Shown here piece by piece: positions 7,578-29,627 of a DNA stretch of 38,960 bases (position 1 is its first letter; each line of letters opens with the position of its first letter). A program made the position numbers and the translations under genes. Under the pieces are notes generated by a model, which saw nothing but the letters and a program-made list of their open reading frames with translations, was not told the DNA's origin and did no database searches. This DNA is from Kiloniellaceae bacterium (lineage in GTDB: Bacteria > Pseudomonadota > Alphaproteobacteria > Kiloniellales > J153), in assembly GCA_021776055.1 (NCBI GenBank), contig JAJFGP010000045.1, positions 1 through 38,960 on the forward strand, written 5' to 3'.

Positions 7578-8207
7578 TTATTTTAGCCGCAGGTTCGCCA
7601 GGAAGATGGCGACGGCGCTATCCACGGCACGGTCGACCTCGGATTGCGTTGGCGCGTCGCGCACCCCCAGGAGCAACGGCAGCAAGAAGGGACCGCTGAT
7701 AAGTCCAATGAACTGCATGGCCGCCAAATGCGGATCGGGCATGGCCAACTCTTCCTGTTGGGCCAAGTCGGTCAAATAAGTTGCCAGCAGTTCCCGGGCG
7801 CGCCCCGGTCCTTCCTGCCAGTAGGTCCGGCCCAACTCCGGGAATTGGGTCACACCGGCGATCACCGTGCGGAAAAGCGAGATGATCTCCGGTTCCATCA
7901 GTTTGTGCGTAATTGCCAGGCCGATGGTCCGCAGAACCGCCTCCGGCGGGCCGGCCAGATCGTCGCTTACTTGCGGCCCACTCGATTCCTCGCACATTTT
8001 GTGCATAACGCCGGCGAAGAGGGCTTCCTTGTTTTGGAAATGGCTATAGACGGTGGCCTTGGAGACGCCTGCCTCTGCCGCGATCGCGTCCATGCTGATC
8101 ACGTCATAGCTGGCCGTCAGGAACAGCTTACAGGCCGCGCTGACGATCAGCTCCTGCTTCGACGGCGATGCCGCGGCGATCTCGGTCTGCGCATTCTGTG
8201 CCGTCAT
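7578..8207 (-). CDS. TetR-family repressor, probable regulator of the divergent RND operon
   Basis: The protein has 209 residues. The N-terminal helix-turn-helix spans about residues 19-65 (ISMDAIAAEAGVSKATVYSHFQNKEALF), followed by an all-helical ligand domain of the AefR-like C-terminal type (GRTYWQEGPGRARELLATYL). Of two possible starts, the ATG at 8207 is preferred over the one at 8225 because GAGGTG sits 6 nt before it. The gene points away from an RND exporter operon, the usual arrangement for a local repressor that is released when a toxic or lipophilic ligand binds. Two near-palindromic repeats in the shared intergenic region are candidate operators and may also give autoregulation. 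The inducer is unknown. Confidence 0.93.
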   Translation of the reverse strand: MTAQNAQTEIAAASPSKQELIVSAACKLFLTASYDVISMDAIAAEAGVSKATVYSHFQNKEALFAGVMHKMCEESSGPQVSDDLAGPPEAVLRTIGLAITHKLMEPEIISLFRTVIAGVTQFPELGRTYWQEGPGRARELLATYLTDLAQQEELAMPDPHLAAMQFIGLISGPFLLPLLLGVRDAPTQSEVDRAVDSAVAIFLANLRLK

Positions 8208-8233
8208 ACTGTCCACCTCGCGCATTTCGGGTC

Positions 8234-8262
8234 TGGACTAGACCGTACAGTCCAACTATACT
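8234..8262 (+). promoter_or_regulatory. Candidate sigma-70 promoter of the RND operon
   Basis: TGGACT (8234-8239) and TATACT (8257-8262) are separated by exactly 17 bases and point to the RND gene about 105 bp downstream. The -10 box is close to consensus and the -35 is partial. The promoter lies between and under the two operator-like repeats. Confidence 0.55.
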
Positions 8263-8275
8263 AAACCGTACAGTC
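8241..8275. promoter_or_regulatory. Two TetR operator-like repeats
   Basis: The sequences GACCGTACAGTC (8241-8252) and AACCGTACAGTC (8264-8275) share ACCGTACAGTC with a 23-bp period. Each is a near-palindrome centred on GTAC, as expected of a dimeric TetR site. One occupies the promoter spacer and the other lies just after the -10 box at the presumed transcription start, an arrangement that would block RNA polymerase. No other pair like this was seen nearby. Confidence 0.65.
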
Positions 8276-8366: not shown

Positions 8367-10793
8367 ATGACGTCTGGTACCAGCAATTCGGCCTCCGGCA
8401 ACCGGTCCGGTGGGCCCACCCCAACACCCCCCCGCCAGGGCCTGTTCTCCGACGCCTTTGCGGTGGCCTTTACCCAATGGGTCATCCGCTGGCGCTGGGC
8501 CGTGATTCTTCTGTGCCTCGTTGCCGCCTTCGCCGCCGCCTCCGGTGGCCGCTTTCTCGGCTTTGCCTCGGATTACCGGATATTTTTTAGCAGCGGTAAC
8601 CCGCAGCTGGAAGCTTTCGAGACCATGCAGCGGGTCTATTCCAAGGACGACAATATCAGCTTTGTCATCAAGCCGGCCGAAGGCGAGATTTTCACGCCGG
8701 AGCTGCTGGCCTCCATCCGCGATTTGACGGAAGCCGCGTGGAAGATTCCCTTCTCCACCCGCGTGGATAGCCTGACCAACTTCCAGCACAGCTATGCCGA
8801 TGGCGACGATCTGACCGTACGCGACTTGGTGCCGGCGTCGGCGACACTGGATGCGGCGACCATTGCCGAGGTCCGTGCGGTCGCCATGAGCGAGCCGCTG
8901 CTTATCGACCGCACGATTTCGCCCGATGGCACTACCACCAACGTCAATGTGACCGTCACCCTGCCGCAGAAGAATGTGGAAGAGATTCCCGCCGTCATGG
9001 TCTATGCGCGGGATCTGGCCGCCAAGTTCCAAGCCGAACACCCCGGTGCACGGGTGGCATTGACCGGCTTGGTGGCCCTGAACTCGGCCTTCTTCGAGGC
9101 CAGCATCAAGGACATGGGCACGTTGGTGCCGATGATGTACGGCGTCTTGCTCCTGATGATGGTGCTGTTCCTGCGCTCGGTCTCGGGCACCTTCGCCACA
9201 CTTCTGGTTATCGGCCTATCCGCCGCTACGGCGATGGGCCTGGCCGGCTGGTTCGGTATCCGCTTAACGCCGCCGTCCTCCGTGGCCCCAACGGTCATCC
9301 TGACCATCGCCATCGCCGATTCGATCCACATTCTGGTCTCCATGTTCAAGGCCATGCGCCACGGCATGGAAAAGCGCGCGGCGATCGTCGAGGCCATGCG
9401 CATCAACTTCGGTCCGGTGTTCCTGACCAGCCTGACCACGATCATCGGCTTCTCGAGCCTGAATTTCAGTGATGCTCCCCCGTTCGCCCATCTGGGCAAC
9501 ATCACCTCGATGGGGGTCGCCGCCGCCTGGGCCTATTCGATCCTATTCCTGCCGGCCCTGATGGCCGTCTTGCCGCTGCGAACGAAGGCGCAATCGGACG
9601 GCAAGATCACCGGCATGGAGCATTTTGCCGAGTTTGTAATCCGCAACCGGCGGCCGGTGCTCTTCTCGACTATCGCCCTGGCAGTTGGCCTTGGCGCCAT
9701 GGTGCCGCGGACGGCCGTGAACGACGATTTCGTCGGATATTTTGACGAATCCATCCAGTTCCGCACCGATACGGACTTCGCGATGGAAAACTTGTCCGGG
9801 ATTTACCAGTTGCAATGGTCGCTCCCGGCGACGGGTCCTGGCGGTATCAGTGAGCCGGAATATCTGCAGCGGATCGATGCCTTCGACAATTGGCTACGCG
9901 AGCAGCCTGGCGTCGTGCACGTTCAGACATTGACGGACATCTTCCGCCGCCTGAACAAGAACATGCACGCCGACGATTCGGCTTGGTACAAGTTGCCCGA
10001 GGAACGGGATCTCGCGGCTCAATACCTGCTGCTCTTCGAGATGTCCCTGCCCTATGGCCTGGATCTGAACAACCAGATCAATGTCGATAAATCGGCCATG
10101 CGGGTAATTGCGACAGCCGACAACATTTCGACCAACGAGTTGCGGGCCATCGATGCCCGCGCCGCCGATTGGTTGCAGGCCAACGTGACGTCGGAACGGA
10201 TCGATGCCTCCGGGCCGGTCATGATGTTCGCCTATATTACCCAACGGAACATGATCGGCATGCTCACCGGCACCGCCATGGCCCTTGTGCTTATCTCGTT
10301 CTCGTTGACCATTGCCCTGCGCGATATCCGGCTCGGCCTGATCAGCCTGGTCCCCAACCTGTTGCCGGCGATCATGGCCTTTGGCATCTGGGCGATCGTT
10401 GTCGGCCAGGTCGATGTGGCCTCGTCCATCGTTACCGCAACGAGTCTGGGCATTATCGTCGATGCGACCGTGCATTTCCTGAGCAAGTACCAGCGCGCCC
10501 GGCGAGAAAAGAATTTGGATGCCGAGGGCGCGGTGCGCTATGCCTTCTCGACCGTGGGGGTCGCCCTTTTGGTCACCGCGGTAATTCTCATCGGCGGGTT
10601 CGGCGTCCTGGCGTTTTCGACCTTCAAGCTGAACGAGAGCATGGGCATCCTAACGGCCATCACCATCGCCGTGGCCTTGATCGCCGATTTCCTGCTCTTG
10701 CCTGCCCTGTTGCTGACTATCGACCGGCGCCAATCATCTAAAAACCAGGAGGCTTCACATGCCGAACGCCCTGCACCACAAGCCGCGCAGTAG
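8367..10793 (+). CDS. RND-superfamily exporter (MMPL-type)
   Basis: This 808-residue inner-membrane protein has the two-fold RND layout: a first membrane helix around RWRWAVILLCLVAAFAAA, a periplasmic loop beginning FASDYRIFFSSGNPQL, a block of helices about residues 250-400, a second periplasmic loop, and a final helical block from about 620 to 785. The DYRxFFxxxNPQL start is typical of the single-component predicted exporters related to MMPL and hopanoid/sterol carriers rather than drug-type AcrB pumps, which are about 1,030 residues. GAGGGGAT precedes the ATG. The gene is followed by genes for a LolA-like periplasmic protein and an outer-membrane protein, and the whole set is divergent from a TetR gene. 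Proton-driven export of a lipid or hydrophobic compound is likely; the substrate is unknown. Confidence 0.92.
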   Translation: MTSGTSNSASGNRSGGPTPTPPRQGLFSDAFAVAFTQWVIRWRWAVILLCLVAAFAAASGGRFLGFASDYRIFFSSGNPQLEAFETMQRVYSKDDNISFVIKPAEGEIFTPELLASIRDLTEAAWKIPFSTRVDSLTNFQHSYADGDDLTVRDLVPASATLDAATIAEVRAVAMSEPLLIDRTISPDGTTTNVNVTVTLPQKNVEEIPAVMVYARDLAAKFQAEHPGARVALTGLVALNSAFFEASIKDMGTLVPMMYGVLLLMMVLFLRSVSGTFATLLVIGLSAATAMGLAGWFGIRLTPPSSVAPTVILTIAIADSIHILVSMFKAMRHGMEKRAAIVEAMRINFGPVFLTSLTTIIGFSSLNFSDAPPFAHLGNITSMGVAAAWAYSILFLPALMAVLPLRTKAQSDGKITGMEHFAEFVIRNRRPVLFSTIALAVGLGAMVPRTAVNDDFVGYFDESIQFRTDTDFAMENLSGIYQLQWSLPATGPGGISEPEYLQRIDAFDNWLREQPGVVHVQTLTDIFRRLNKNMHADDSAWYKLPEERDLAAQYLLLFEMSLPYGLDLNNQINVDKSAMRVIATADNISTNELRAIDARAADWLQANVTSERIDASGPVMMFAYITQRNMIGMLTGTAMALVLISFSLTIALRDIRLGLISLVPNLLPAIMAFGIWAIVVGQVDVASSIVTATSLGIIVDATVHFLSKYQRARREKNLDAEGAVRYAFSTVGVALLVTAVILIGGFGVLAFSTFKLNESMGILTAITIAVALIADFLLLPALLLTIDRRQSSKNQEASHAERPAPQAAQ

Positions 10794-11589
10794 TGCCATG
10801 CTCGCGCAATTCGGCCTGGCCGCCGCTATCGTCGCATTCTCGGTCCTGCCCGCCACGGCTCAGACGCCCGAGGAGAAAGGCCGGACTATCGCCGAGGAGG
10901 TGGATAGCCGCGACGTGGGTTGGGGCGACAGCACCACGACCCTGGAGATGATCCTAAGCAACAGCCAGGGCGAAACCAGCACCCGCGTACTGCGGTCGCA
11001 AAACTTGGAGGTCAACGGTGATGGCCTGGGCGATAGGAGCCTGACCATCTTTGACCGACCGCGCGACGTCGAAGGAACCGCGTTCCTGTCGCACACTAAG
11101 ATCACCGAGGCGGACGATCAATGGCTGTACCTGCCCGCGCTCAAGCGGGTGAAGCGGATTTCGTCGGCCAACAAGTCGGGCCCCTTTATGGGCAGCGAAT
11201 TCGCCTACGAGGACCTGCTTAGCCAGGAGGTGGAGAAATACACCTACCGCTGGCTGCGCGACGAGCCGTGCGGCGATCTGCAATGCACCGTCATCGAACG
11301 CTTCCCGGTCTATGAAAACTCGGGCTACACCCGACAGGAAGTTTGGATCGACACGGGCGAATACCGAATCCAGAAAATTGATTTCTACGATCGCAAAGAA
11401 TCGCTACTCAAAACGCTCCTCTATTCGGACTATCGCCAGTATCTTGGAAAATATTGGCGCGGCCACACCCTGGTGATGGCCAACCACCAGACCGGCAAGG
11501 GAACCACGTTGAAATTTGCCGACTACGAGTTTCAAATCGGCGTCCGTGAGAACGACTTCACACCCGACCGATTGAAACGGGTGCGGTGA
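10759..11589 (+). CDS. LolA-like outer-membrane lipoprotein-sorting family protein (periplasmic)
   Basis: The 276-residue product has a signal peptide (LAAAIVAFSVLPATA followed by Q) and the later-family LolA-like beta fold seen in proteins encoded beside RND exporters. Recognisable patches are LTIFDRPRDVEGTAFLSH, DDQWLYLPALKRVKRISS, SGPFMGSEFAYEDL and a closing ADYEFQIGVRENDFTPDRLKR. It probably shuttles a lipid or lipoprotein-like ligand across the periplasm between the RND protein and the outer membrane. The ATG at 10759 has AGGAGG 7 nt upstream and overlaps the RND gene by 35 nt. Its stop overlaps the next start (GTGA), so translation of the three genes is coupled. Confidence 0.88.
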   Translation: MPNALHHKPRSSAMLAQFGLAAAIVAFSVLPATAQTPEEKGRTIAEEVDSRDVGWGDSTTTLEMILSNSQGETSTRVLRSQNLEVNGDGLGDRSLTIFDRPRDVEGTAFLSHTKITEADDQWLYLPALKRVKRISSANKSGPFMGSEFAYEDLLSQEVEKYTYRWLRDEPCGDLQCTVIERFPVYENSGYTRQEVWIDTGEYRIQKIDFYDRKESLLKTLLYSDYRQYLGKYWRGHTLVMANHQTGKGTTLKFADYEFQIGVRENDFTPDRLKRVR

Positions 11590-12815
11590 GTTCGGTCGTC
11601 AGACGGCAGATCGGCTGGGCTGTCGCCGTAGCCGCGGTTCCGCTGCTTGCCGGTACGGTTCCGGCCGGCGCCGGCGAGCTAAGCTGGTCCGCCGAGGTTG
11701 CCAGCGAGGTCCGCGTCTTCCCCTACCGGCCGGCATTTCCGCGCCAAGATAACGACGCCTTGGTCCCGTCGATCTCGGTCGAGCCCGAGATCGTTTACGA
11801 ATGGAATAACCGAGACGACCGTTTCACGTTCGTCCCGTTTGCGCGTCTGGATGCCGGTGACGATGCACGCAGCCACCTGGACGTGCGTGAGGCCAATTGG
11901 CTGCATCTGGACGACGATTGGGATCTCATCGTCGGCGTCGCCAAGGTCTACTGGGGTGTCACCGAATCACGCCACCTGGTGAACATCATCAACCAGACCG
12001 ACGGCGTGGAGGACGTTGACGAGGAAGACAAGCTTGGCCAGCCCATGGTCAACGGAAATATAAACACCGACTGGGGCACCTTCGGGGCCTTCGTTCTGCC
12101 CGGCTTTCGCGAGCGAACCTTCCCCAACGCCGATGCCCGCCTGGGCGGCCCGCTGCCCATCGATGACGACAATGCCACTTATGATTCCGGTGCCGAGGAA
12201 CGGCACGTGGACTTCGCCGCGCGCTGGCGCAAAACCTTCGGCGATTGGGATGTCGGGTTATCGGAATTCGTCGGGACAAGCCGGGAGCCTCGCTTCATTG
12301 CGGGCACTCGAAACGGCGAAAGCGTCCTGGTGCCGCATTACGATCAGATCGATCAGACCGGTCTGGACCTACAATTCACCGGCGAGGCGACGCTGTGGAA
12401 ACTCGAAGCCGTGACTCGTGGTGGCCAAGGCGATCGCTTTTTCGCCGCGGTCGGCGGCCTGGAGCACACCTTCTTTGGCGCCTTCGATACCAATGCCGAC
12501 ATCGGCTTGCTGGCCGAATACCTTTACGATGGGCGGGACGAAGTCGGGGCCCCAGCGACGAGTGCCGACGACGACATCTTTCTCGCCACCCGCCTCACCC
12601 TGAATGACGAGCAGGACACCGCTCTCTTGGCCGGGGTCATCGTCGACCGGGACACCCAGGCTACCCTCCTCACCATCGAAGCGGAGCGGCGCCTGGGCGA
12701 TAGCTGGAAGCTGGAACTGGAAAGCCGCCTGTTCCTGAACGTGCCCTCTGGCGACCCCCTGGTCGCCGTGCGCAACGACGACTTCATCACCCTGCGCCTG
12801 ACCCGATACTTCTAG
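11586..12815 (+). CDS. Outer-membrane beta-barrel protein of the RND operon
   Basis: This 409-residue protein starts with GTG overlapping the previous stop. It has a signal peptide ending near VPAGAGE, then a mature part of alternating polar and hydrophobic strands rich in Asp, Tyr and Trp. It ends in ITLRLTRYF, with the terminal phenylalanine used as the outer-membrane insertion signal. No named domain can be pinned with certainty; it resembles uncharacterised barrel proteins encoded after RND/LolA-like pairs. It probably provides the outer-membrane end of the same export or lipid-trafficking route. A general porin role is possible but less supported by context. Confidence 0.8.
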   Translation: MSSVVRRQIGWAVAVAAVPLLAGTVPAGAGELSWSAEVASEVRVFPYRPAFPRQDNDALVPSISVEPEIVYEWNNRDDRFTFVPFARLDAGDDARSHLDVREANWLHLDDDWDLIVGVAKVYWGVTESRHLVNIINQTDGVEDVDEEDKLGQPMVNGNINTDWGTFGAFVLPGFRERTFPNADARLGGPLPIDDDNATYDSGAEERHVDFAARWRKTFGDWDVGLSEFVGTSREPRFIAGTRNGESVLVPHYDQIDQTGLDLQFTGEATLWKLEAVTRGGQGDRFFAAVGGLEHTFFGAFDTNADIGLLAEYLYDGRDEVGAPATSADDDIFLATRLTLNDEQDTALLAGVIVDRDTQATLLTIEAERRLGDSWKLELESRLFLNVPSGDPLVAVRNDDFITLRLTRYF

Positions 12816-12872
12816 ATCGCGCCAACCCCCCAAGACCACCATTCCGGCCCAATTGGCCCTAAAGTTCCCGAT

Positions 12873-12892
12873 GCGTTACCCTTTATTAACGC
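12873..12892. repeat. Inverted repeat upstream of the patatin gene
   Basis: GCGTTA and TAACGC are separated by 8 bases in the 95-bp gap before the patatin gene, ending 18 bp ahead of its ATG. It could be a regulator dyad or a weak stem at the end of the RND transcript. No T-run follows, so it is not a classical terminator. Confidence 0.35.
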
Positions 12893-12910
12893 TGCTGGCA
12901 CGGATTCTTA

Positions 12911-13939
12911 ATGGCACGCGCGCGAAAATCAGCCATGCACGACACCCCGGACCCGACATGGCGGCCAAAGATCGGACTAGCCCTTGGTAGCGGCGTCGCC
13001 CGAGGTTGGGCCCATATCGGCGTCCTGCGGGCCCTGGAGCGCTATGGCTTCAAACCCGACATCGTCACCGGCACATCCGTAGGCGCCCTGATCGGCGGCG
13101 CTTACGTGGCTGGCCGTATCGACACCCTGGAGGCCTGGGTGCGCGCCCTAAACAAGGTCAAGATCGCCTCCTATCTGGACTTCCGGGTGCGCGGCGGTGG
13201 CATGATCGGCGGCCGTCATCTGGTCGACGCCATGCGGCAGCACCTGGGCGATACCCTCATCGAGGACCTGCCCATCCCATTCGCAGCCATTGCCACCGAT
13301 CTGGTGACCGGTCACGAGGTTTGGCTGCGCAAAGGGAGCTTGGTCGAGGCGATGCGCACCTCTTTCTCTCTGCCGGGCGCCTTCGAACCGATGCAAAAAA
13401 ACCACCGCTGGCTGGTCGATGGGGCGCTGGTCAACCCAGTGCCCGTATCCGTCTGCATGGCCTTGGGCGCGCAGATGACCATCGCCGTCAACGTAAACGC
13501 GGATATCATCGGCAAACAGCGGCGGACCGGCTCTGCGGTCCCCAGCATCGCCGGCTTCGACCTTCTGCAAGAAATCGAGAATGCCAAGACGCCGGGAAAA
13601 CGTTCCAAGCTTAGCGCCCTGGCGCGCCGCGTCTTTAAGCGCGAGCCGACCCAGCCGAGCATGTTCGGTGTGATGATTTCGTCCTTGGGCATTGTGCAGG
13701 ATCGCATTTCCCGCTCGCGCCTAGCCGGCGAACCGCCGGATGTCCACATCACCCCGCGTCTTGGTCACGTGGGCCTGTTCGAATTCGACCGCGCCGACGA
13801 GATCATTGCCGAGGGCGAGGCCGCCGTGGAGCGGGCGCTCCCCGATTTGCGCGATGCGCTGGCGATCTTCGGCCGAGACCTCAACGGCGATGACAACGGG
13901 CAGGACGAGACCGAAGTCCAAAAGAAAGCCGCGCCCTGA
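12911..13939 (+). CDS. Patatin-like phospholipase (RssA type)
   Basis: The 342-residue protein carries the patatin serine-hydrolase signature: the oxyanion-hole loop GSGVARGWAHIG near residues 26-37, the nucleophile elbow GTSVG at about 56-60, and the catalytic aspartate in DGALVNPVP at about 173. These enzymes use a Ser-Asp dyad to cleave acyl groups from phospholipids. There is no signal peptide, so it is likely cytoplasmic or inner-membrane associated. The C-terminal tail is acidic, then basic (KKAAP). The start is uncertain: ATG 12911 has only a weak ribosome site and ATG 12935 is possible. It follows the RND operon by 95 nt and may share its lipid-related role, but could have its own promoter. 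Confidence 0.92.
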   Translation: MARARKSAMHDTPDPTWRPKIGLALGSGVARGWAHIGVLRALERYGFKPDIVTGTSVGALIGGAYVAGRIDTLEAWVRALNKVKIASYLDFRVRGGGMIGGRHLVDAMRQHLGDTLIEDLPIPFAAIATDLVTGHEVWLRKGSLVEAMRTSFSLPGAFEPMQKNHRWLVDGALVNPVPVSVCMALGAQMTIAVNVNADIIGKQRRTGSAVPSIAGFDLLQEIENAKTPGKRSKLSALARRVFKREPTQPSMFGVMISSLGIVQDRISRSRLAGEPPDVHITPRLGHVGLFEFDRADEIIAEGEAAVERALPDLRDALAIFGRDLNGDDNGQDETEVQKKAAP

Positions 13940-27939: not shown

Positions 27940-28482
27940 CTAGAAATCCTGAACACCAGCCTTTCTCGCTAAGAATTCCAGCAACCTCGCACTGGAGAGT
28001 CCGAACTCCTCAATAATTGGATCAGGTTTTACCTGATTGCCATCGTCTGCTGCATCCAAATAGCTATCCATGCCTTCCAATGAGGCCTGATACCGAGCAA
28101 CATACGGGTCGATCTCCCGTTGGTATATCAAAGAAAATTCCACCGATCTCCATTGAAGCTTTGAGATATCGGTCTTTATATTCAGAAATATCTCATTCTT
28201 TTTGTCGGCGTCTAATGTCTTTTCGTGTAACAAGTTAAATTTGGCAATCAGCTCTTTCGTATCATTGTTCAACGCATTAATTGTCGATGTGTAAAATGCT
28301 GATCTTCGAGCCTCTTGTTCAAATTTATTGTTCACAAGAGGCGCTACAACTATCGCAACGAAAACGGAAATAGAAATAAGAGTTACCTTGCCTAGCACAC
28401 TCCATCCGGCTGGAAATTCAGGTTTATTCCAATCAGTAAATGAAATTTTGATCGCTCTAAAATATTTGTTTGTCATTTTCAT
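27940..28482 (-). CDS. Island protein B: single-pass membrane protein with predicted coiled coil, unknown family
   Basis: This 180-residue protein is not recognised. It has a cytoplasmic start of about 28 residues (MKMTNKYFRAIKISFTDW), one clear membrane helix about 29-50 (LGKVTLISISVFVAIVVAPLV), and a charged, heptad-like region about 52-115 (FYTSTINALNNDTKELIAKFNLLHE) that may form a coiled coil. It ends with a short helical segment (LSSARLLEFLARKAG). The DNA is markedly AT-rich compared with both flanks, with many AAA, ATT and TTT codons. Its ATG shares one base with the TAA stop of gene A (TAATG), indicating translational coupling and probable complex formation. A membrane effector or anchor partner of A is inference. 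Confidence 0.8.
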   Translation of the reverse strand: MKMTNKYFRAIKISFTDWNKPEFPAGWSVLGKVTLISISVFVAIVVAPLVNNKFEQEARRSAFYTSTINALNNDTKELIAKFNLLHEKTLDADKKNEIFLNIKTDISKLQWRSVEFSLIYQREIDPYVARYQASLEGMDSYLDAADDGNQVKPDPIIEEFGLSSARLLEFLARKAGVQDF

Positions 28483-29627
28483 TATTCAGTTTCAGAAGAA
28501 GTTTTTGCACCCACTTGATCTTTGGCTTTTTTACCTTTATCGTTTGCTTCCTCCGAGGTGCTATTTGATACAGATTTTACTATAGTCTTTATGATATTCT
28601 TTAATTCTTCTTCGCTTCTCCGATCTTTGTATTCACTGCTGTTTTCTATCTGCATACCCTCCACATTTGCCTCATTGAATTTCCCGGAAACCAAGAGCGC
28701 CAAACCCACCGCAACAAATACGCCGAGGCTCCTTCGGCCAACCACTCTGTAAAACCCTGGAGAATGAAAAGATTGCTCAAAATCGACAACATCTTCCTCT
28801 GAATAATATTCTGATATTATCTGCGAGAATGACTTGTTCCTAATCTCACCAAGTTCTTCCCTATCATGAAGGCCATACAGAGCGATCAAGAATGCAATGA
28901 TTTGCTGAGTCTCAAGAGTTTCAAGTGGGTTTCGTCCCCGATAACCAGGGCATTCTATATCAGCACCACTAGCTTCCCGCGACATGAAGCTAAGGAAGAC
29001 ATGCGAGAATACTTCTACGCCAAACGCTTCTCGATGAACCGGTATGACTGCATGTGGATTTTCTAAGCGCCTTGAGAGTTCTGTACTCAAGTCGCGCTTT
29101 GCGAATGAAGGAGAGAGCCAGCGAACTTGCCTATATGGGAAGGGGTCTCTTGGGTAGCGATCTAATGTAATTGTCCCCCTAACGCTTCCTTGACTGCCCA
29201 ATATGCCAGCCAAAATTCTGTTGTATTGACCTCTTGGCGGAATTAGAACGATGTCTCCCTTTTGCATTTCAGTATAAAAGCGCTTTATATTAGTGACATC
29301 GCTAGACATATAGCGATCACTTCTCGCAATATTATAATCACCAGGGCGGCGACTCGGCTCATTTATTTCTTGTCTACTATAATATTTCTTAACTGCCTCC
29401 GACATCATCACGTGTTGCTTAATCAGGTTATCTGATGCAAGCATTCGATTGCTTGCTCGCAGTCCCGGATAATCAAGGAATATCCCTTCCCCAGCTTCGA
29501 TTTGAGAAAAGTACTTTTTGCCCTTTCCTGCGTGAAACGCCCAAATCTTTGCATTGTCTGGTAGAAGCGCCGCGTTGATATCGATTCTCATTTCTTGCAA
29601 TCCATTATCCGGTGCAAATTCACTCAT
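28482..29627 (-). CDS. Island protein A: putative PUA/EVE-like N-domain plus C-terminal membrane helix, unknown family
   Basis: This 381-residue protein is not confidently assignable. Residues about 26-172 follow the layout of N-terminal recognition modules found in some restriction and defence proteins: AKIWAFHAGKGKKYFSQIEAGEGIFLD, then FYTEMQKGDIVLIPP, a turn, LAGILGS and a closing YRQVRWL. These resemble PUA/EVE-like modules, but that is by eye only. A helical middle (about 195-295) precedes a membrane helix at about 299-315 (SLGVFVAVGLALLVSG) and a charged, Ser/Glu/Lys-rich tail. No nuclease or ATPase motif was found. Composition is AT-rich, unlike the neighbours, which suggests horizontal transfer. 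The ATG at 29627 lacks a good ribosome site; ATG 29591 (MRIDINAAL) is an alternative. Confidence 0.82.
   Translation of the reverse strand: MSEFAPDNGLQEMRIDINAALLPDNAKIWAFHAGKGKKYFSQIEAGEGIFLDYPGLRASNRMLASDNLIKQHVMMSEAVKKYYSRQEINEPSRRPGDYNIARSDRYMSSDVTNIKRFYTEMQKGDIVLIPPRGQYNRILAGILGSQGSVRGTITLDRYPRDPFPYRQVRWLSPSFAKRDLSTELSRRLENPHAVIPVHREAFGVEVFSHVFLSFMSREASGADIECPGYRGRNPLETLETQQIIAFLIALYGLHDREELGEIRNKSFSQIISEYYSEEDVVDFEQSFHSPGFYRVVGRRSLGVFVAVGLALLVSGKFNEANVEGMQIENSSEYKDRRSEEELKNIIKTIVKSVSNSTSEEANDKGKKAKDQVGAKTSSETE

Follow-up and report, generated by a model that had tools for sequence, protein, structure and literature searches.

Four genes that lie close together on one strand of a contig from a Kiloniellaceae bacterium (38,960 nucleotides, analysed as a whole and called the window here) encode an RND transporter, a LolA-like protein, an outer-membrane barrel and a patatin. 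A sequence-only reading of this locus had proposed that the four could form one path for lipid export or remodelling across the envelope. Here we ask which of these genes belong together, how they may be controlled and what they might carry.

Gene organisation of the locus

A check of the open reading frames returned all four genes at the positions given by that reading, all on the forward strand (Table 1). The proposed coupling of the first three genes was also borne out, as the last 35 nt of the RND gene also belong to the LolA-like gene, whose ATG follows an AGGAGG ribosome-binding site, and the stop of the LolA-like gene and the start of the barrel gene share GTGA. The patatin gene starts 95 bp past the barrel gene, as claimed. 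A divergent TetR-family gene, absent from the sequence-only reading, lies 141 bp from the RND gene, and the cassette probably comprises the genes for TetR, RND, LolA-like carrier and barrel.

Table 1 Features of the cassette region, in positions of the window
Feature	Position	Strand	Size and evidence
TetR-family repressor gene, AefR-like C-terminal domain, divergent from RND	7578..8225	-	215 aa; Pfam
Promoter-like site TGGACT-17-TATACT	8234-8262	+	consensus match only
Two exact ACCGTACAGT repeats, candidate TetR operators	8242-8251, 8265-8274	+	motif match only
RND transporter, MMPL/HAE3 type	8367..10793	+	808 aa; Pfam MMPL, AlphaFold2 model, fold matches
LolA-fold periplasmic carrier, N-terminal signal sequence	10759..11589	+	276 aa; PF17131, DUF1329, 3bk5 match
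Outer-membrane beta-barrel of an orphan family, with signal sequence, probably a distant DUF1302 relative	11586..12815	+	409 aa; model, hhalign
RssA-like patatin, cytoplasmic, neighbour outside the exporter	12911..13939	+	342 aa; synteny, NF007623

Elsewhere in the window, positions 27940-29627 have a GC content of 44% against about 62%, and hold two ORFs (180 and 381 aa) that lack a Pfam family; PADLOC gave weak hits to ZorC and PDC-S02. This segment is possibly a small acquired island.

Transporter, carrier and barrel

The RND protein matched Pfam MMPL with 122 bits, which passes the cut-off, and scored 10.9 bits against ACR_tran (cut-off 28, not reached) and 150 bits against the HAE3 family TIGR00921 (cut-off 352), well below the curated HAE3 threshold. 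Its AlphaFold2 model (pLDDT 86) gave MmpL4, MmpL5, NPC1L1, MmpL3 and HpnN as best folds, with AcrB absent among the best 50 fold matches, in support of the earlier assignment of the protein to the MMPL type and not the HAE1 drug-pump type. D699, H321 and H703 were invariant in 63 homologues, and D318 was conserved in 52 of them, being replaced by N in nine and by H in two.

The LolA-like protein belongs to PF17131 (LolA_like, 209 bits), also exceeded the cut-off of DUF1329 (40.1 against 23.1 bits) and matched the crystal structure 3bk5 with an E value of 9.6e-95; this structure is of a Vibrio parahaemolyticus protein (PMC13103446). LolA3 of Porphyromonas gingivalis (9tp6), a more distant relative of the window protein, possesses a hydrophobic groove, and its binding to LolB is very weak (PMC13103446); having a LolA fold is therefore not enough to make a protein a lipoprotein carrier.

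No Pfam family matched the window barrel protein, and its barrel nature was confirmed by the AlphaFold2 model (pLDDT 92.6), which has about 18 long strands. AlgE was the nearest fold, at a modest TM-score of 0.58 at best, and AlgE and porin folds were among the matches. Pfam DUF1302 matched weakly in two of 40 barrel family members, hhalign of the family against DUF1302-like barrels gave a probability of 96.7% (E 3.8e-10), and the one classical DUF1302 sequence compared gave no match. Residues 117-154, the most conserved part of the barrel and rich in invariant positions (consensus G..KVFWGVTES.HLVDIINQTD), align with GKQQIVWGQADGLKVLDVVNP of DUF1302-like barrels and fall largely in the modelled loop between strands 5 and 6, which may fold into the lumen, where porins keep their constriction loop. 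By these comparisons, the window barrel is assigned to an orphan family that appears distantly related to DUF1302.

Conservation of the triad

A profile search of genome contigs with the LolA alignment found at least 588 relatives, of which the best 80 loci were retained, and gene order was counted in the 79 of these where the script recognised the LolA gene. RND lay directly upstream in 74 and the barrel directly downstream in 73 of these 79 loci. Since the complete order was kept in 70 of the 79 (from the best 80 of at least 588 relatives), the juxtaposition is not due to chance; the RND, LolA-like and barrel genes form one unit, in agreement with the idea of a coupled inner-membrane, periplasmic and outer-membrane assembly. 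Across the 79 loci, RND-LolA gaps were mostly between -50 and +50 bases and LolA-barrel gaps mostly within about 12 bases; these figures use the longest possible starts, so that overlaps are upper limits. Pairwise distances of the three proteins correlated at 0.73-0.81, compared with at most 0.21 in shuffles, and shared species history explains part of this correlation.

Hosts among the best 80 of at least 588 relatives were mainly Gamma- and Alphaproteobacteria, followed by Nitrospinota, with single loci in Nitrospirota, Thermodesulfobacteriota, Rhodothermota and Planctomycetota; many hosts are metagenome bins, which makes the rarer phyla provisional. The triad is widespread and occurs in cultured marine bacteria such as Vibrio and Kiloniella. 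LolA-like genes were distributed patchily, in 34 of 60 related genomes, a count that takes in more distant LolA paralogues.

In the neighbourhoods of relatives, RND, barrel and TetR were the only recurrent partners of the LolA-like gene, and neither biosynthetic nor catabolic genes were found to recur near the triad. Reading the substrate from neighbour genes was tried and given up, because only TetR recurs beside the triad and the downstream clusters are small and clade-specific. A limited literature search revealed no described function for the triad cassette.

Four genomes of genus g14 (G018, G050, G054 and G055) carry two to four LolA-like genes each, of different kinds. Some of these adjoin DUF1302-like barrels, and a separate DUF1302 gene is also present, with a DUF1329-like neighbour where this was read (L161). 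The variety in g14 is repeated diversification of one module.

The TetR gene and its putative control region

The TetR protein matched TetR_C_7 (114 bits) and TetR_N (57 bits), and genes of the TetR type are repeatedly found ahead of the triad in relatives, 45 loci falling into one similarity cluster. Even with up to one mismatch allowed, ACCGTACAGT occurs in the window only as two exact copies, at 8242 and 8265; both overlap the sole promoter-like site of the TetR-RND region, as judged by consensus matches, and are candidates for the TetR operators of the window cassette. The sister genome G001 has similar sites. Upstream of the RND genes of distant relatives, the exact window motif is mostly absent and a different palindrome is found: several relatives carry a longer one, GTAAACTGCACAGTGTAGTTTAC or close to it, at the same place. 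Such a palindrome is shared by the loci L035, L036, L037, L038 and L055, where it is the likely TetR operator.

Probable acquisition of the cassette beside the patatin gene

The patatin matched Pfam Patatin with 110 bits, and a search for a signal sequence found none. It resembles RssA in its patatin type, its GTSVG and DGA motifs and its lack of a signal peptide, and with 249.7 bits against NF007623 (RssA) it stays just under the equivalog cut-off of 272; on this match it would be called RssA-like, not formally RssA.

The order GGT-patatin-Tdh without the cassette was found in six genomes of the same family (G002, G003, G004, G006, G007 and G008, from genera g2, g3 and g4), with Kbl next after Tdh in the five of them where Kbl was found. 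The cassette lies on the GGT side of patatin in the window and in G001 only, the two genomes of one genus, and the neighbourhood comparison found the adjacency of patatin and cassette in the window's genus alone. The G001 assembly is in pieces: the contig with GGT has a TetR-like gene at its end, and patatin and Tdh are separated by antiporter genes. Downstream of the full patatin gene in G001, two antiporter-like genes flank a fragment that corresponds to patatin residues 212-310 (L031:7539-10404), which points to rearrangement or misassembly at this place.

In relatives with the triad, patatin either lies on a different contig or is separated from it by hundreds of kb, and in the g3 genomes G006-G008 the triad is on contigs other than that of patatin. 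G002 and G003 have the patatin, and a LolA-like relative was not found in them. In the last 40 bp upstream of the window patatin, 37 positions are identical to G001. A stretch of 19 columns also aligns with the spacer between GGT and patatin in G002, a match equalled by 3 of 2000 shuffles, and with that of G008, equalled by 6 of 1000, the comparisons with G004 and G006 not being significant. From these matches to G001, G002 and G008, the patatin gene probably keeps ancestral upstream DNA and its own old promoter. A pattern scan of the 95-bp gap between barrel and patatin gave neither a promoter nor a terminator, a negative of little weight since the hits of such a scan do not exceed chance.

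When the C-terminal part of RND was concatenated with the LolA-like and barrel proteins, the resulting tree joined the window's genus to g14, a genus of family f4 (support 99), apart from genus g3 of its own family. A constraint holding the own-family (f1) rows together was rejected (p-AU 4.5e-43); identities had already pointed to the conflict when this group was put to the test. Tdh, in contrast, shares 80-82% identity with the own family and 69% with g14. An old duplication with loss could yield the same tree picture, and G018 has a second, diverged triad. Transfer is nevertheless the simpler reading because the tree conflict goes together with a clean insertion between GGT and patatin; the cassette was probably acquired horizontally and inserted there.

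That the exporter and the patatin make up one pathway for lipid export or remodelling, as the sequence-only reading had it, is thus highly improbable. The two share a strand at a distance of 95 bp and sit side by side in the window as well as in G001; transcription from the cassette promoter may run on into patatin, and no terminator-like site was found in the gap. Against this stand the GGT-patatin-Tdh order in three other genera without the cassette, the separate position of patatin in triad-bearing relatives, its presence in the two genomes where the LolA-like relative was not found, the missing signal peptide and the conserved upstream DNA of its own. On the strength of this synteny and of where the gene lies in relatives, apart from the triad, patatin was ruled out as an exporter partner; the gene is unrelated to the cassette and older at this place, and its adjacency is an accident of insertion.

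Comparison with characterised systems

The closest characterised system is AmeABCD of Castellaniella defragrans, in which an HAE3 RND protein is found with a LolA-superfamily (DUF1329) protein and a DUF1302 barrel; its deletion lowered monoterpene tolerance and raised Nile Red accumulation, and the measured action is outward (PMC6394551). Both cassettes combine an MMPL-type RND and a LolA-superfamily periplasmic protein with a barrel, which in the window appears distantly related to DUF1302. However, the window cassette has three such genes without AmeC (COG4447), and its order is inner membrane, periplasm, outer membrane with RND first, whereas AmeABCD runs outer membrane, periplasm, periplasm, inner membrane; its LolA protein is shorter, its barrel is unrecognised by Pfam DUF1302 and a TetR gene is attached. 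Because of the missing AmeC, the other gene order and the other barrel family, the window cassette is a variant of AmeABCD and not a member.

Other systems share single traits. HpnN is likewise an MMPL-type RND for a hydrophobic lipid, but the window RND scored 102 bits against its cut-off of 752, and no hopanoid or sterol genes were found near the cassette. Identity with the hopanoid transporter was ruled out, as a true HpnN is encoded elsewhere in the same genome, on contig C93 (967 bits). On that contig, HpnN and HpnL-like domains occupy one 1220-aa frame (L184:1664-5326), an apparent HpnN-HpnL fusion. The sterol system BstABC also has an MMPL-type RND, together with inner-membrane, periplasmic and outer-membrane-associated parts (PMC10942540), but the window RND reached 39 bits against the BstA cut-off of 1400, and BstB is a phosphonate-type binding protein (PMC10942540), unlike the LolA-like window carrier. 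MmpL4/5-MmpS4/5 provide the best fold matches of the RND protein, whereas MmpS and the coiled-coil domain of MmpL are lacking here, and a Gram-negative barrel is present instead. LolABCDE shares the LolA-like fold of the carrier, but the window protein is of a different Pfam family (LolA_like, PF17131), RND replaces the ABC transporter, and neither LolCDE nor LolB genes were found in the cassette. Compared with the AcrAB-TolC (HAE1) pump, the cassette contains no MFP adaptor and no TolC gene, and its RND misses the ACR_tran cut-off.

Discussion

On balance, the cassette is probably a proton-driven exporter under TetR repression that carries a lipid or a hydrophobic small molecule, and the patatin is unrelated to it. 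An inducing hydrophobic molecule would release TetR, and the proton-driven MmpL-type RND would then lift the hydrophobic substrate out of the inner membrane. The LolA-fold carrier would take it into a hydrophobic cleft and cross the periplasm, and the barrel would pass it into or through the outer membrane. Extraction by RND, shuttling by LolA and exit through the barrel are proposed because MFP and TolC are missing from the cassette. Among the relatives of the RND protein, MmpL4/5 and AmeD transport siderophores, a drug or monoterpenes, and the lipid substrate of the sequence-only reading is thus retained as one option but not as the sole one; bulk phospholipid is less likely than a minor lipid or a small hydrophobic compound of endogenous or foreign origin.

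A role in lipid homeostasis, with an endogenous hopanoid-like, sterol-like or phospholipid molecule placed in the outer membrane, would suit the RND fold, which is common to HpnN, MmpL3 and NPC1L1, and a carrier of the LolA type with a hydrophobic cleft. We regard it as unlikely, given the separate HpnN of this genome and a cassette that is patchy even with distant LolA paralogues counted, mobile and under a local TetR; an inducible exporter therefore fits better. Movement in the opposite direction, with hydrophobic substrates brought inward from the outer membrane to RND, is suggested by the fold of the RND protein, which is close to NPC1/NPC1L1, and these eukaryotic proteins move sterols inward. 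DUF1302/DUF1329 relatives also sit in a monoterpene-degradation island (PMC6394551). Such an uptake line nonetheless appears distinctly unlikely, as no catabolic gene recurs near triad cassettes and the measured analogue AmeABCD acts outward (PMC6394551).

Beyond the favoured export reading for this locus, we suggest tentatively, and with more doubt than confidence, that such cassettes make up a widespread class of mobile TetR-controlled envelope exporters. In this view, the adaptor/TolC tunnel of RND pumps would give way to a shuttle of LolA fold, with the orphan barrel (about 18 strands) as exit, and hydrophobic substrates would be ferried through the periplasm instead of being channelled. 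The patatin case is a warning that adjacent genes need not be partners. The question of how hydrophobic molecules get past the aqueous periplasm arises for most MMPL-type RND transporters, and this cassette sets a candidate carrier and a candidate exit beside the RND pump. With cultured marine hosts and the 3bk5 structure of a close carrier relative at hand, the choice between shuttle and tunnel is directly testable.
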